This document shows positions 42,780 to 62,309 of a stretch of DNA of 64,000 nucleotides, in pieces. The stretch is from Haladaptatus caseinilyticus. Its GTDB lineage: Archaea; Halobacteriota; Halobacteria; Halobacteriales; Haladaptataceae. Under the pieces are notes generated by a model, which worked only from the letters and a program-made list of their open reading frames with translations, did not search any database and was not told the origin of the DNA. Position 1 is the first letter of the stretch. Each line of letters starts with the position of its first letter. Position numbers and translations under genes: made by a program. Where the stretch lies: the NCBI RefSeq assembly GCF_026248685.1, contig NZ_CP111042.1, forward strand, positions 186,001-250,000, given 5' to 3'.

Positions 42780-42967
42780 CGTTGTAATCACGGGGGTTCG
42801 ACGAACCCCCGCTCGAACCACACCACATGAGGTTCACACCGCGTTGCCGGTGACACATGGTGGTACTAGTGCGCTAGTTACAGTGGAGTGCGTCTTTTTC
42901 TGCGTCATTTTCTGCGAAACGGAGAGGATCGCGAACGCGATCCCCCCTCTATTACAACGGTGTAATC
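42772..42967. repeat. Inverted-repeat and hairpin array after the truncated Rep-like gene
   Basis: Two arms, GATTATAGCGTTGTAAT (42772-42788) and ATTACAACGGTGTAATC (42951-42967), form an inverted repeat with two mismatches in 17. Between them are a hairpin CGGGGGTTCG/CGAACCCCCG (42791-42811) and the palindrome GGATCGCGAACGCGATCC (42926-42943). The layout matches that at 58782-59029, where arms and hairpin have different sequence. An origin of replication of a plasmid is a reasonable reading. Confidence 0.55.
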
Positions 42968-53192: not shown

Positions 53193-54419
53193 ATGCGGCG
53201 GTTCACCCGAAAACAAAATATTTTCACAAACAAGGACGCGCTCAACGAGTCCTATCAACCCGAGCGTATCCAAGAACGTGATGAAGAGATCGACGCGTAC
53301 ATGAACGCTCTTCAGCCCGTCGTCGACGGATGGGAGCCAAACAATATTTTCGTATACGGGAATACAGGAGTTGGGAAAACTGCAGTCACCGATTTCCTCC
53401 TTGATAGACTCTGTGAAGACATCGGACAATACGACGACATCGACCTCCATGTACTCTCTCTCAACTGTAAAACGCTCAACTCATCCTATCAAGTTGCTAT
53501 CGAACTGGTGAACGAACTCCGACCTGAGGGGGCCGAAATCAGTTCGACAGGATATCCACAGCAAACGATCTTTAAAAAACTCTACACTGAACTCGACAAG
53601 CTTGGTGGAACCGTGCTCATCGTCCTTGACGAGATCGACTCCATCGGCACTCGTGACGAGCTTCTCTATGAACTCCCTCGTGCGCGATCAAATGACAAGC
53701 TTACTGAGACGAAAGTCGGTTTGATTGGTGTGAGCAATGATTTCAAGTTTCGAGATCGGCTCGATCCTCGTGTCCAAGACACACTCTGTGAACGGGAACT
53801 TCATTTCCCACCATATGACGCGCCTGAACTCCAGAATATTCTCGAGTCTCGCGTCGATGTTGCACTTGCAGAAGGATCTCTCGAAGATAGCGTCCCACGC
53901 CTCTGTGCTGCGCTTGCTGCCAAGGATAGTGGTAGTGCTCGTCAAGCACTCGACTTGCTTCGACTTGCGGGAGAGCATGCTGAAAACAGCGATGATGACC
54001 TCATTACGGAATCACATGTCGAGGCGGCAAAGGAGATGCTTGAACAGGAGCGTGTTGAAGAAGGGATGCGAGAATTAACCGTCAATGGCCATTTCGCCCT
54101 TCTAGCAGTCGTCTCAATGGCTGCAAAAGGTGATACACCGTGTCGTACCCGGCGTATCTATGAGGAGTATACTGACCTTTGCCAGTTCGCAGGTGTCGAT
54201 CCGCTCGCTCAGCGGTCCGTACATAATCACCTATCTGATCTTAGGATGCTTGGTATTTTGACTGCCGAGGAGAATCGGAGTGGCTCCCGTGGAAATTACT
54301 ACAGCTATGCACTAGATGTTCCCTTCTTTAGTGCGCTGTCAGCACTATCTGATGTGCTGTCTTTAGAGGATACGTTGACAAAGCTAGAAACGCTCGCACA
54401 GCAAAATGATGTTCTGTAG
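53193..54419 (+). CDS. orc1/cdc6: Orc1/Cdc6 replication initiator
   Basis: A 408-residue AAA+ initiator that binds origin iterons and loads the helicase. Walker A GNTGVGKTA is at residues 56-64, Walker B VLIVLDEID at 141-149, a sensor-like region in LIGVSNDFKFRDRLDPRVQD, and a C-terminal winged helix near HFALLAVVSMAAKGDTPCRT. Length is typical. The origin lies just upstream. It probably governs this replicon (plasmid or secondary origin). Confidence 0.93.
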   Translation: MRRFTRKQNIFTNKDALNESYQPERIQERDEEIDAYMNALQPVVDGWEPNNIFVYGNTGVGKTAVTDFLLDRLCEDIGQYDDIDLHVLSLNCKTLNSSYQVAIELVNELRPEGAEISSTGYPQQTIFKKLYTELDKLGGTVLIVLDEIDSIGTRDELLYELPRARSNDKLTETKVGLIGVSNDFKFRDRLDPRVQDTLCERELHFPPYDAPELQNILESRVDVALAEGSLEDSVPRLCAALAAKDSGSARQALDLLRLAGEHAENSDDDLITESHVEAAKEMLEQERVEEGMRELTVNGHFALLAVVSMAAKGDTPCRTRRIYEEYTDLCQFAGVDPLAQRSVHNHLSDLRMLGILTAEENRSGSRGNYYSYALDVPFFSALSALSDVLSLEDTLTKLETLAQQNDVL

Positions 54420-55184: not shown

Positions 55185-55740
55185 AAATGACTATGGGATG
55201 GGCTATGGCTAAAACTATAGGATTTTCCATAGGCAAGTGAGGCTCATTTCGCTGGAAAAGAAACTTATCTAGTTAACAAAATCCGTCTTTTCCGTACAAT
55301 CACGAAATCGTTTGTGTTGATTAGACAGGATCACTGTTAGTGTAATATACTAACTAGCGGTTCTCTCGTTGACCTTCGATCGGCTTTCTTCCTAGCTGAG
55401 CGGTCACCAATTGGCTATAAATATACTATTGTTTCAGCAATAGTTCTCTCTATTGCTATTTCTATGGTATATTCTATAACTGAGTAAGCATGCGTTCCTA
55501 CGGTTAATTCTATTGGGTATCCTAAAGAAACATTTAGATAATATTTCTCTCGATGGCTATAGGATATCCTATATCCAATATTGGACTACTATCTTTTCTA
55601 AACGACGACCTCTATTTCTCGTCACCCGAATGTCGTCCGACTACAGCATTCTCTATATCTATGTCTAATGTGATTTCTAAACCTCTTCCAATATTGTTAG
55701 TTATAGCAAATTATATGGGGATTCCTATAGGCGTCGTGCA
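55185..55740. repeat. AT-rich field of CTATAGG-type motifs, left of the par operon
   Basis: An AT-rich stretch holds many related short motifs: ACTATGGGA, GCTATGGCT, ACTATAGGA, CCATAGGC near 55190-55245; TCTATGGTA near 55462; GGCTATAGGATATCCTATAT near 55555; TCCTATAGGCG near 55723. Such a field next to parA-type genes may be the centromere or operator of the partition system. No gene is seen in it except the very end of the parB-like gene. Confidence 0.55.
55336..55354. promoter_or_regulatory. 19-bp palindrome, site 5 (GTTAGTGTAATATACTAAC)
   Basis: One of six copies; inside the AT-rich field, no gene begins nearby. Confidence 0.45.
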
Positions 55741-56114
55741 GACTTTGCTTTGGCGTCTAACCACGTTTCAACAACATCTGGTGCCGCTCGTTGAAGTCCC
55801 GCTCGAATCGCCAGTCGGAGCACTTCACTTCGATCAACCGCTTCCTCATTAACCTCCCGTCCAAGTTCTTCTTGCAAACGTGACCCGACGTCCTGTTGAA
55901 TCTGGGGATTCGATTCGAGTGCAGAAATAAGGGCAGCTGTATCGCCATCCCAAAACGAGACTGTCTTCTGCCGGTCTCCATTCTCTATCTCAGAGAGTAC
56001 CGCGAGAATATCTTCACGGAACGATTTAGATTCCGATTGTTTCGCTGATTCTTGATTCCGATTCCCGACCTGCGTTTTTTGCTTGAGTTCCTCAAGGTCG
56101 ACGTCTTCGCTCAT
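55725..56114 (-). CDS. Partner protein of ParA (DNA-binding, centromere candidate)
   Basis: A 129-residue acidic protein overlapping the end of parA by ATGA. The N-terminus is rich in Lys and Glu; the C-terminus (VDRSEVLRLAIRAGLQRAAP, DVVETWLDAKAKS) has a ribbon-helix-helix-like S-E-V-L-R-x-A-I-R-x-G-L pattern. In such operons the small downstream protein binds centromere repeats. ATG 56114. The start codon region and operon position support this role; identity with a named family is not claimed. Confidence 0.7.
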   Translation of the reverse strand: MSEDVDLEELKQKTQVGNRNQESAKQSESKSFREDILAVLSEIENGDRQKTVSFWDGDTAALISALESNPQIQQDVGSRLQEELGREVNEEAVDRSEVLRLAIRAGLQRAAPDVVETWLDAKAKSARRL

Positions 56115-56956
56115 TGTTGTTCCTCCAGTCGGGTGACGAGTTCAGCTGCATTTTCCCGATACGCTTCTAACGCACGAGTGGCCGTCTTCGATGGCTCTTC
56201 AAGTGCAAACGCTGTTTGTCCGTTTATTTGCGCATTCACAATATCCTGCGAATAATTGACCTGCCGAGGAGCAATCGCATCCGGATAGTTCTCGGTGAAC
56301 GTCTGCTTGAAATGCTTACCAGCATTCGTACGTTCATCAAGTTCGTTGAGGATGAGCATCGTCAGCTGGATGTCTGTATCTTGCTCTTCTCGGATCTCGT
56401 GTAGATCATCGCGTAATTGTGCTGCTTGGCCTTCTTCGAACGGCCCTGCTTTCACAGGTGCGAGTACGTTCTTTGCGGCCCACAGTCCATTGTAGGTGAT
56501 ATTGGATGTGCTTCCTGGCAAATCGAGAAGCACGATATCATACTGGCCGTCGATGAACTCGGTAAGGAACGTGTTGAGGCGAGAGTATCGTTCTTGCGTG
56601 TCATCGATGTTTCCGAGCATACTATCGAGTCCATCAAGCCCCTCGTGCGCTGGAATCAGATCAGGACCCTCTCCAGTTTCGAGGACGAGCTGATCAACAG
56701 CGTCGTCGATTTGCTTGGCGATGATATCCCATTCATCTTGGAACACGGTCGTGATGTTCGGCCAATTCTCCTCGTTCGCTTGTACCTCTTCCCAAAGGCC
56801 AAAGTGCTTCGCAAGGTCGCCCTGTTTCCCGGCGAGATCGATAAGGAGGACGTCAAGCCCATCCTCCTCAAGAGCAACACCAAAATGAGCGACAGTAGTG
56901 GTCTTTCCGACTCCACCTTTGTCAAGGAACGACGCAATACGCATTGTATTCGGCAT
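56111..56956 (-). CDS. parA: ParA-family partition ATPase
   Basis: A 281-residue ATPase. The deviant Walker A KGGVGKTTT is at residues 13-21, with VLLIDLAGKQGDLAKHFGL and YDIVLLDLPGSTSNITYNGL as further motifs of the ParA/Soj group. It segregates plasmid copies before division with its partner and a centromere. Start ATG 56956, or 56944. The start lies next to a TATGCCTAT/ATAGGCATA inverted repeat, a likely operator. The partner gene overlaps the 3' end. Confidence 0.9.
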   Translation of the reverse strand: MPNTMRIASFLDKGGVGKTTTVAHFGVALEEDGLDVLLIDLAGKQGDLAKHFGLWEEVQANEENWPNITTVFQDEWDIIAKQIDDAVDQLVLETGEGPDLIPAHEGLDGLDSMLGNIDDTQERYSRLNTFLTEFIDGQYDIVLLDLPGSTSNITYNGLWAAKNVLAPVKAGPFEEGQAAQLRDDLHEIREEQDTDIQLTMLILNELDERTNAGKHFKQTFTENYPDAIAPRQVNYSQDIVNAQINGQTAFALEEPSKTATRALEAYRENAAELVTRLEEQQ

Positions 56957-57511: not shown

Positions 57512-57611
57512 ATAGTCGCACGTCAGTATCGTCAGCGTATGGCATTTTCTCGGGTGCTTCGAGGAGTTCGAGATACAATCCCCACTCCACTCGACAAAAC
57601 CGGTATCCTCC

Positions 57612-57863
57612 CTGACGACAACCGACAAACTCGAGAGGCATCCGTACCGTGACCCAGAGAAGTTACAGCCCGTCTACGAGCAAGTCGGATCAATTGCTGG
57701 CACCGCTGCCCACTTCGACGTCTCAGAGACGACAGCACGCATATGGTTGATTCACCACGAAATCTATGACCCCGAAGAACAGGGAATGTCGTCTGTTGCG
57801 AATCGGCTAGAAGAGCTGTCACCTGAAGATTTGGGACTCCCACCACTGGGTGAGTGCCAATGA
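57612..57863 (+). CDS. Homeodomain-like HTH protein with CTG in place of ATG
   Basis: An 83-residue frame reading TTTDKLERHPYRDPEKLQPV, YEQVGSIAGTAAHFDVSETT, ARIWLIHHEIYDPEEQGMSS, ending LPPLGECQ. The G-S-I-A-G-T-A-x-x-F-x-V-S-E-T-T-A-R-x-W segment is a helix-turn-helix. The expected start lies at CTG 57612, and no ATG or GTG is available nearby, so it is translated from a rare CTG start or has lost its start. It lies 28 bases before the Rep-like gene. Confidence 0.55.
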   Translation: MTTTDKLERHPYRDPEKLQPVYEQVGSIAGTAAHFDVSETTARIWLIHHEIYDPEEQGMSSVANRLEELSPEDLGLPPLGECQ

Positions 57864-57891
57864 GCACAACGGAGTTCGGAGGTGAACACTG

Positions 57892-58782
57892 ATGTTGATC
57901 GGACTTTCGTCGGACGATGGTGACGAAAACACGGTCTCGAACGACGACGCTGCCACAGCAATTAGAGCGGATGTAGCAGTGCCAAACACGTCGAGTACGG
58001 CCACGACCGAGCAGGAGGCCCCAAGTCGGGAAGCGATGTGGACACAGATCCAGCGACAGACCGAGCAAATCGAATCGCTCCACCAGCGCGTCAAGACGCT
58101 GGAACAAGAACGTGAGAACACTGAGAAAGATCTAGCCGATGCACAGGATCGTGCCAACCGCTCCGAGGCCGTGGCCGACGCCGCAATAGTCCACACCCGA
58201 CAATTATGGATGCTCTCTGACGCGCTCGAAACACGGGTCGACAACGCGACAACGCGCGTGTTCGAGAACCACGAACAACGGCTACAGGACATCGAACACG
58301 ACCGCGTGGATGTAAGCGACCTCATCAACTCGGATGTAACCCACGACCTCGAAATTCAACGGAAGACGGCTGCACGACTAGCCGCTGAGCGGGAAGACAC
58401 AGACTCGCCTCTGTCGGGGAACAAGCATCGGATGACGTTCTTATGGCGCGAGTTCATCGAATCAGCGCAGAAGACGAAAGGCGGGAAACTGGAACTCGAT
58501 TCAGCGGCATGCCGTCGTCGGTTAGAAAACCGCGCGGGGATCCACAATCCAAACACGAACACGGTGCAGCGGTCGATGAAAATGCTGGCGCGTCACACGC
58601 GTCAGGATGGTAGTGTGAATGGCTCGGGCAAGTGGGACGACCAAGATAACCTTGTTCGCTTCGACCCCGGCGAGCGGGGCGGACAGGCTGCCCGGTTAGT
58701 TGCTGATGCAGACGAGTTCCGTGAATTCGCTGCCGAACAATCACGGTCTGCGCTCGAACAGGGAGGTGAGGAAGCGCGATAA
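57892..58782 (+). CDS. Rep-like plasmid protein (coiled coil and winged helix)
   Basis: A 296-residue acidic protein. Residues 45-95 form a coiled coil (MWTQIQRQTEQIESLHQRVK, TLEQERENTEKDLADAQDRA), and a second helical region follows; residues about 175-255 (MTFLWREFIESAQKTKGGKL, DSAACRRRLENRAGIHNPNT, NTVQRSMKMLARHTRQDG) look like a winged helix. A GGAGGTGA ribosome site precedes ATG 57892. Directly after its stop comes an inverted-repeat and hairpin array that may be its binding site, as in iteron or dso-type plasmid origins. Role as a replication initiator is an inference. Confidence 0.6.
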   Translation: MLIGLSSDDGDENTVSNDDAATAIRADVAVPNTSSTATTEQEAPSREAMWTQIQRQTEQIESLHQRVKTLEQERENTEKDLADAQDRANRSEAVADAAIVHTRQLWMLSDALETRVDNATTRVFENHEQRLQDIEHDRVDVSDLINSDVTHDLEIQRKTAARLAAEREDTDSPLSGNKHRMTFLWREFIESAQKTKGGKLELDSAACRRRLENRAGIHNPNTNTVQRSMKMLARHTRQDGSVNGSGKWDDQDNLVRFDPGERGGQAARLVADADEFREFAAEQSRSALEQGGEEAR

Positions 58783-59029
58783 TTACACTGTCGTAATCAT
58801 CCCTCGAACACGGGGCGTAATCTTGCTCCGAAGCGTTTCCAGAGTACTCCTCCACAGATGACAAGGGGGACGCAATTTGCGTCCCCCTTCGAAGCGGAAC
58901 GAACGGTCGGCTACTGTGGGGTGTAATTACTCTCGCTTTTCTCACCGGGATTGCGAGGTAGAAGAAAGCGAGAGAACAGGCATGACGTGATTACGGTTCA
59001 TGTTCGGGCGTTAATTACGACAGTGTAAT
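58782..59029. repeat. Inverted-repeat and hairpin array after the Rep-like gene
   Basis: Perfect inverted arms ATTACACTGTCGTAAT (58782-58797) and ATTACGACAGTGTAAT (59014-59029), 216 bases apart. Between them lie a 13-base-stem hairpin AAGGGGGACGCAA/TTGCGTCCCCCTT (58863-58889), a second inverted pair TCTCGCTTTTCT/AGAAAGCGAGA near 58931-58973 and extra GTAATTA/GATTACG half sites. The first arm overlaps the stop region of the Rep-like gene. No gene is seen between. The rest of the stretch to 59230 is also empty. Confidence 0.75.
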
Positions 59030-59230
59030 CTTGGCTGAGAGGATATTGTTGTGAACGCGTTACGGTCAGTATGTATGTTGGTGAGGCTTATGTCGTCTAT
59101 GAGCTAAATGAAATGCGATATTACGAGTTCAACCTCTCTAAGCATGATCGCAAATACGATGCCACCTAAAGCCCCGCTTATCGCACCGTGTCGTACTCGC
59201 ATTCCCCTGTCCCTTCGGGTTGCTTTCCAA

Positions 59231-61970: not shown

Positions 61971-62309
61971 TCAATCTGCATTCATTTCTGATCGACCGAA
62001 CATCCATGACTTTGCACGTGTGAGTAGTGACGTCTCCTTACTATCTTCGACCGCCGGGACCGGATCGGCTTCGAGTTGTCGCGTCAGCCGGTTATTTTCT
62101 TCGTGCAATCGCTCAATTTCGCCTTCAAGCCGGGAGAGAGCCTCTCTCAGGAAAGAGGATTCAACATCTGAATCCAGTGTTGAATGCGTTGAATCACGAT
62201 TACGGATGATTTGACGGACGTATTCACTTCTGGATTCATCTCGTTTCTTCGCTTCTTTCTCCAACTCCTCTATTTCGTCTCTCTCAAGCCGGACGGTCAT
62301 ATTCTTCAT
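61971..62309 (-). CDS. Ribbon-helix-helix (CopG/Arc-type) protein with coiled coil
   Basis: A 112-residue protein. Residues 3-35 (NMTVRLERDEIEELEKEAKK, SRSEYVRQIIRNR) are a classic ribbon-helix-helix DNA-binding domain; residues 50-85 (FLREALSRLEGEIERLHEEN, NRLTRQLE) form a coiled coil for dimer or partner contact. Such proteins act as regulators or plasmid copy/partition factors. ATG 62309 or 62300. Palindrome site 6 lies 80 bases upstream of its start. Confidence 0.82.
   Translation of the reverse strand: MKNMTVRLERDEIEELEKEAKKRDESRSEYVRQIIRNRDSTHSTLDSDVESSFLREALSRLEGEIERLHEENNRLTRQLEADPVPAVEDSKETSLLTRAKSWMFGRSEMNAD

Follow-up and report, generated by a model that had tools for sequence, protein, structure and literature searches.

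Results and discussion

The module and its neighborhood

The window, the whole 64,000-nucleotide stretch of Haladaptatus caseinilyticus DNA that was analyzed (C7:186001-250000 in a genome of seven contigs), carries a gene for a predicted DNA-binding protein that runs directly into an array of inverted and repeated sites. Gene and array are together referred to here as the module. The features of the locus, in window coordinates, are:

53193-54419, + strand: Orc1/Cdc6 gene
55725-56114, - strand: gene for a 129-aa protein, overlapping parA
56111-56956, - strand: parA
57516-57863, + strand: open frame with an HTH part
57892-58782, + strand: module gene (window copy), ATG start, 296 aa; N-terminal coiled coil (helix ~46-135) and C-terminal winged-helix domain (~176-272)
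58782-59032: whole cis-element, from the stop codon to dyad 2, the proposed binding array for the module protein
58782-58797, + strand: dyad 1, ATTACACTGTCGTAAT, starting on the final base of the stop codon
58817-58822, + strand: half site GTAATC
58863-58875/58877-58889: hairpin, AAGGGGGACGCAA-T-TTGCGTCCCCCTT, with a 13-bp perfect stem
58905-58922, + strand: mid-array core, GGTCGGCTACTGTGGGGT
58923-58930: palindromic double half site, GTAATTAC, read by eye
58989-58994, + strand: half site GATTAC
59014-59029, - strand: dyad 2, an exact inverted copy of dyad 1

The preliminary description of this DNA had proposed an intact operon in which a CTG-started HTH gene precedes the module gene, with parA nearby and an Orc1/Cdc6 origin 5 kb away. 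Both neighbors were confirmed: parA lies ~1 kb from the module on the opposite strand, and 4.7 kb separate the start of the Orc1/Cdc6 gene from that of the module gene. The description was also accurate about the 16-base perfect inverted arms 216 bases apart, the 13-base-stem hairpin and the extra half sites. The operon holds for the module gene and its array but not for the HTH gene, whose frame contains no ATG, GTG or TTG ahead of codon 78 and does not need the CTG at 57612-57614 as a start. At the same place in Haladaptatus sp. DYF46, H. litoreus and H. salinisoli there are ATG-started ORFs of ~140 aa that stop 25-30 nt short of the module gene. Given these ORFs in the relatives and the lack of an early start here, we read the window frame as a 5'-truncated remnant of a ~140-aa HTH gene. 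Over 87 aa it matches the C-terminal end of a 549-codon ORF on C4 with 85% identity.

The 129-aa gene overlapping parA has no Pfam or NCBIfam match and probably encodes the centromere-binding partner of parA. Elsewhere in the window, 61971-62309 (- strand) encodes an RHH and coiled-coil protein that is weakly NikA/MobA-like; similar RHH genes adjoin modules on C4, in H. salinisoli and on a 4.5-kb plasmid.

The module protein

A Shine-Dalgarno-like GGAGGTGA stands ahead of the ATG of the module gene, and the same motif is found in DYF46, H. litoreus and H. salinisoli. An AlphaFold2 model built from a 38-sequence alignment (mean pLDDT 78.6) gave a single helix at residues 46-135 and a winged-helix arrangement at 176-272. 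Neither the model nor Pfam indicated a nicking, AAA+/ATPase, HUH or Rep_trans domain. Specifically, there was no Pfam or NCBIfam match to an AAA+ ATPase plus winged helix of the Orc1/Cdc6 type, and no Pfam match to the DUF7845/Rep_trans catalytic domain or to an HUH motif, MobA-VirD2 or Rep domain. The alignment has no invariant tyrosine, the best tyrosine column holding 24 of 38 sequences.

Sequence searches of Pfam, NCBIfam, PHROGs and the PDB returned no informative match for the protein, only coiled-coil noise. Foldseek with the model gave nothing at E<=1e-3, and its top matches were generic winged helices (CprK, MarR, Cdc6, RTP). No paper on the protein was found in the open-access literature, which is not proof of novelty. 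By these profile and structure searches, which agree with the earlier failure to recognize the family, this is probably an uncharacterized DNA-binding protein whose family is in none of the libraries searched.

A conserved array downstream of the gene

Each dyad has the form ATTAC-ACTGTC-GTAAT, with palindromic 5-bp arms around an asymmetric 6-bp center, and the two copies face each other. They form the only perfect 16-base inverted pair spaced 100-300 bp apart within the 64-kb window, and are nested in a longer 41-nt pair that is 80% complementary. With up to three mismatches, the 16-mer occurs four times in comparison to 0.51 expected from shuffles. A lone dyad with two mismatches, ATTACACCGTTGTAAT at 42951-42966 (- strand), has no partner that we could find and is perhaps a remnant. 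The half sites at 58817, 58923 and 58989 were picked by eye; the first lies ~20 bp past dyad 1, and it and the last fall in mostly invariant columns.

The locus was compared with those of DYF46, H. litoreus, H. salinisoli and H. halobius, where the protein is 70-79% identical. Pairwise DNA identity, in 20-bp bins, is 76-100% up to 59032 and drops to 21-43% beyond; positions 59013-59032 are invariant across the five Haladaptatus sequences, and conservation ends at 59033. Because conservation stops sharply at the second arm, we take 58782-59032 to be a selected cis-element. Dyads, half sites and hairpin are all retained in H. pallidirubidus, where the protein is ~34% identical, and arms are retained next to homologues with as little as ~20% identity across Halobacteria.

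A further element is the core near the middle of the array, with the consensus GGTYGRCTACTcgtgrGT trained on six module types. It was found again in the held-out arrays L073, L031 and L064 (p<0.004) and L061 (p=0.017), by shuffle p-values that take no account of sequence relatedness, and it is missing from most arrays of the GTCACA type. In the C3 array it is partly palindromic (TACTC-GT-GAGTA). On average across 19 arrays, no AT-rich unwinding region was found between the inverted sites: mean GC is 0.57 in comparison to 0.56 at their own loci, with no AT-rich segment.

Folded as a single strand, the window array is far more stable than shuffles (z -7.75), and the hairpin stem shows compensatory changes at several pairs among seven sequences from relatives of the same type. 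Both observations would fit regulation of the module gene by a structured RNA or 3'-UTR element. However, the strong hairpin is limited to some module types, and in a set of 20 arrays the inter-arm segment folds no better than shuffles (median z -0.6). Central arm positions are mismatched at many loci, the half sites recur in the manner of protein sites, and there is no Rfam match; an RNA element is thus very improbable. Because folding between the arms is unexceptional, the general feature is a pair of inverted dyads with a set spacing that enclose half sites, an arrangement that reads as a protein-binding array.

Co-divergence of protein and site

Of 391 Halobacteria genomes searched with a profile, 115 contained matches, the weaker of which are partly coiled-coil noise. 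Every one of the 29 loci examined has a GTCACACCCGTTGTGAC-type site, allowing three mismatches, where the gene ends, and at 28 a second, inverted one lies ~205-240 bp further on. At 27 of 29 genome homologues the adjoining arms score at least 12.5, well over most shuffles. No strong arm pair is seen at six loci (L067-L070, L075, L076) of the Halalkalicoccus/Haloferacaceae type. Arms adjoin nearly all of the homologues examined, contrary to the refuting observation that the preliminary description had named, homologues without neighboring arms. Together with the conservation described above, this supports the earlier proposal that gene and array form one unit with a real cis-element and a plasmid function. 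Apparent extra modules in one genome (G376) were rejected as coiled coils of primase-polymerase-like proteins. The GTCACA-type protein was unmatched in phage records, and profile and pattern scans of IMG/VR gave nothing.

The dyad varies with protein type, being ATTACACTGTCGTAAT, GTCACACCCGTTGTGAC, GACAGSTGACGTC-like, GATTATAGCGTTGTAATC or TGACAGCGTCGTCA; further types, among them GTCATTACGGTGTCGTAATGAC, ATCACAGACGTTGTGAT and, with a C-terminal domain that differs, GGAGACAGSTGACGTC, were found through the N-terminal coil. In profile comparisons, the window type joins the Halalkalicoccus/Haloferacaceae type over both coil and winged helix (98.4%), while the link to the YAKKLVSRTIDAL type (98.0%) is weaker and owes part of its score to the coil. 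Hhalo3 and Hsal share 55% identity in the N-terminal domain and have different C-terminal domains. Arm sequence shifts together with the DNA-binding domain. In terms of partition, where a protein binds an adjacent repeated site specific to each replicon, the array is a putative binding site that co-diverges with its protein. Plasmids of H. pallidirubidus and H. halobius share upstream genes that are ~80% identical and are followed by an ATTAC-type module in one and a GTCACA-type module in the other. Since the upstream genes are common and the gene and array types differ, gene and site travel as a cassette.

Distribution among replicons

In the host genome, each of the extrachromosomal contigs C3, C4, C5, C6 and C7 carries one intact module, and the five dyads are all different. 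No module was found on C2 (394 kb). Surplus copies have decayed: one at C7:387879 is interrupted by internal stops, and deletion has left remnants at C4:8645, C7:73186 and C7:98093. The count of one intact module per replicon was fully checked in this genome alone, and per-contig counts across genomes of uneven assembly depend on profile thresholds. Cdc6 is present on all five module-bearing host contigs. Above the TIGR02928 cut-off, Cdc6 is found on 7/7 host contigs, with at least two on C1, C2, C5 and C7.

Beyond the host, modules are spread over replicons ranging from a 4.5-kb plasmid and conjugative plasmids to megaplasmids. They occur on large plasmids with Cdc6 and ParA (pHH126, CBA1115, N. 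thermotolerans), on a 17.6-kb plasmid with an NrS-1-like primase-polymerase, and on PL47 with a P4-type primase. A 49-kb Natrinema thermotolerans "plasmid" (CP031301.1, L093) carries ParA, an integrase and a module, and in our reading of its gene order it resembles a temperate tailed virus. On a 4,491-bp H. urmianum plasmid, no Rep was recognized beside the module. The same is true of a 10.7-kb H. halobius unit, which carries a module together with NikA-like, relaxase and coupling-protein genes; both lack ParA. The H. halobius record (NZ_CP085343.1, L085; 21,460 bp) appears to consist of two tandem copies of a 10,729-bp unit.

The gene content of the 10.7-kb plasmid raises the question of conjugation, in which the array would be all or part of an oriT and the protein a relaxosome component. 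Modules and coupling proteins also reside together in Haloarcula: both are present on C3, C4, C5 and C9 of G169, and two modules accompany two coupling proteins on the same contigs in G084, G106 and G368. This reading is nevertheless improbable, given that C6 and C7 carry modules without VirB4 on the contig, that modules on G055:C4, G385:C5 and G228:C2 have no coupling-protein match, that one module sits on the virus-like plasmid, and that the transfer operon of pHH126 and the 10.7-kb plasmid has an RHH accessory protein and a relaxase of its own, encoded by separate genes. That operon, of NikA-like RHH, MobA/VirD2-like relaxase and TrwB genes, lies at L052:2809-4031 (- strand) in pHH126 and at L085:613-1637 (- strand) in H. 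halobius. The relaxases match PF03432 at E=1.9e-5 and 3.6e-4, respectively, and MOB-suite reports both plasmids as non-mobilizable despite the operon.

Site-specific recombination was also considered, with the protein as an accessory factor and the ~250-bp array as the site at which a host recombinase would resolve multimers or carry out inversion. The array is about as large as cer or res sites, its dyads are opposed and have palindromic arms around an asymmetric center, and a partly palindromic core lies midway. Against this, the module protein is itself no recombinase and has no linked recombinase gene, the core is missing in most GTCACA-type arrays, and the orientation of array to gene is constant in the homologues examined, with no sign of inversion. 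We regard this role as unlikely, if slightly less so than one in conjugation.

Possible roles in replication or maintenance

The preliminary description took the module to be a replication initiator with its origin. Under this reading, the winged-helix protein would bind the dyads and half sites and recruit the replication machinery, and the module would serve small plasmids as primary replicon and large ones as a second or dormant replicon. The gene and its ~250-bp downstream element are laid out like the SNJ2 replicon (PMC13107129), replicon-specific sites are typical of origins, and the 4.5-kb H. urmianum plasmid and 10.7-kb H. halobius unit have no other recognized replication protein. On the 4.5-kb plasmid, the cumulative GC-skew maximum lies 36 bp from the module (p=0.08), a result not repeated elsewhere. 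Several observations speak against it: all five module-bearing host contigs have their own Cdc6, modules coexist with several unrelated replication proteins, the protein has no ATPase or nicking fold, and the site has no AT-rich segment.

The minichromosome of H. hispanica provides a further comparison. It requires one of oriC6-cdc6I and oriC7-cdc6J and cannot lose the two together (PMC3936714). A 488,918-base contig, G084:C1, has the same VirB4 as pHH126, a plasmid that split off from this minichromosome (PMC4441112). Its length fits as well, and by both criteria it appears to be the minichromosome itself. G084:C1 carries two intact modules. Apparently, then, a replicon with two modules still needs oriC6 or oriC7. 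Of the original proposal, the unit of protein and array with a function on plasmids stands, while Cdc6, base composition, domain content and the H. hispanica genetics count against the initiator role, which we consider a tenable but lesser candidate.

We favor a role in replicon-specific maintenance over an independent origin: the module would be a centromere-like adaptor with its own ~250-bp cis-site, to which we assign a probability of roughly 0.4. Modules coexist with unrelated replication systems (Cdc6, NrS-1-like primase-polymerase, P4-type primase or none recognized), and a segregation or identity role fits because the replication systems are many, specificity is set per replicon and extra copies have decayed. 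The C-terminal winged helix, dimerized through the long coiled coil, would bind the inverted asymmetric dyads and half sites and fold ~200 bp into a single nucleoprotein complex. The N-terminal coiled coil, common to modules with different DNA-binding domains, may offer this complex to a common host partner. The complex would mark this particular plasmid and stabilize it, with the array most likely acting as a centromere-like site for segregation. With a different pair of domain and dyad on each replicon there would be no cross-reaction, and modules would act as plasmid-identity (incompatibility) determinants. In this scheme DNA binding, dimerization, the host partner and segregation as the end result are all inferred.

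Several observations count against maintenance. Larger replicons already carry ParA and a partner, so the module would be a second system, while the 4.5-kb and 10.7-kb module plasmids have no ParA, and the module operon contains no partition NTPase gene (ParA/ParM/TubZ). No module was found on C2, and several homologues of the Halalkalicoccus/Haloferacaceae type lack a strong arm pair. The absence of another recognized replication protein on the 4.5-kb plasmid favors a replication role there.

Taken together, the data make it very probable that this is, in general terms, a replicon-specific protein-site module of extrachromosomal elements. From gene and site comparisons, it looks like an undescribed plasmid-maintenance (plasmid-identity) module with a putative role in segregation or replication. 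We see even odds for the fuller statement: an undescribed plasmid-identity system on most kinds of haloarchaeal extrachromosomal element, from cryptic, conjugative and virus-like plasmids to megaplasmids, in which a common coiled-coil adaptor is combined with an exchangeable winged-helix domain and inverted-dyad site, with one intact module per replicon, and which acts in maintenance or replication independently of ParA and Cdc6.

Haloarchaea hold many large plasmids per cell, and their compatibility and stable inheritance are poorly understood. Module types with different recognition sequences are found on most other plasmids of the same cell and on most of those in related species. A protein-site pair whose specificity differs for each plasmid in one cell is a candidate determinant of plasmid identity, and modules could serve to type haloarchaeal plasmids. 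If the array is an origin instead, it would define a replicon class without an ATPase or nicking domain and would also explain plasmids of 4-10 kb in which no Rep is known.

Comparison with known systems

Iteron-type Rep initiators (RepE, pi, RepA) likewise pair a winged-helix protein with repeated, inverted half sites. The module differs in having no Pfam match, no AT-rich region and only one winged helix, which is joined to a long coiled coil. Orc1/Cdc6 with its inverted ORBs is also a replicon-specific protein adjoining inverted sites on haloarchaeal plasmids; the module lacks the AAA+ domain and the AT-rich unwinding region, and both are found on the same contigs. In the AspA/ParB system of pNOB8 and in the ParG and ParR types, a small DNA-binding protein acts on an adjacent array of palindromic sites and is plasmid-specific. 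The module has no ParA in its operon and no sequence similarity to these systems that we could find, and the small module plasmids lack ParA.

For the SNJ2 replicon, rep plus 210 bp of downstream DNA with an inverted repeat and hairpin suffices (PMC13107129). Rep-Arvir/SNJ2 ORF19 (DUF7845) and the module share a haloarchaeal mobile-element setting and a single gene directly followed by ~210-250 bp of essential or conserved DNA. Their layouts with an inverted repeat and hairpin are similar and their sequences unrelated; in the module, the strong hairpin is limited to some types. Rep-Arvir is a nicking enzyme that resembles Rep_trans and has an essential tyrosine, whereas the module protein consists of a coiled coil and a winged helix.

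In KfrA the DNA-binding part is N-terminal, and we know of no conserved ~250-bp array downstream of its gene. KfrA-type proteins are bacterial, unlike the module. They resemble the module protein in combining a long alpha-helical coiled coil with a DNA-binding domain, in residing on conjugative plasmids and in having a maintenance role (PMC7783346), which for the module is a proposed one.
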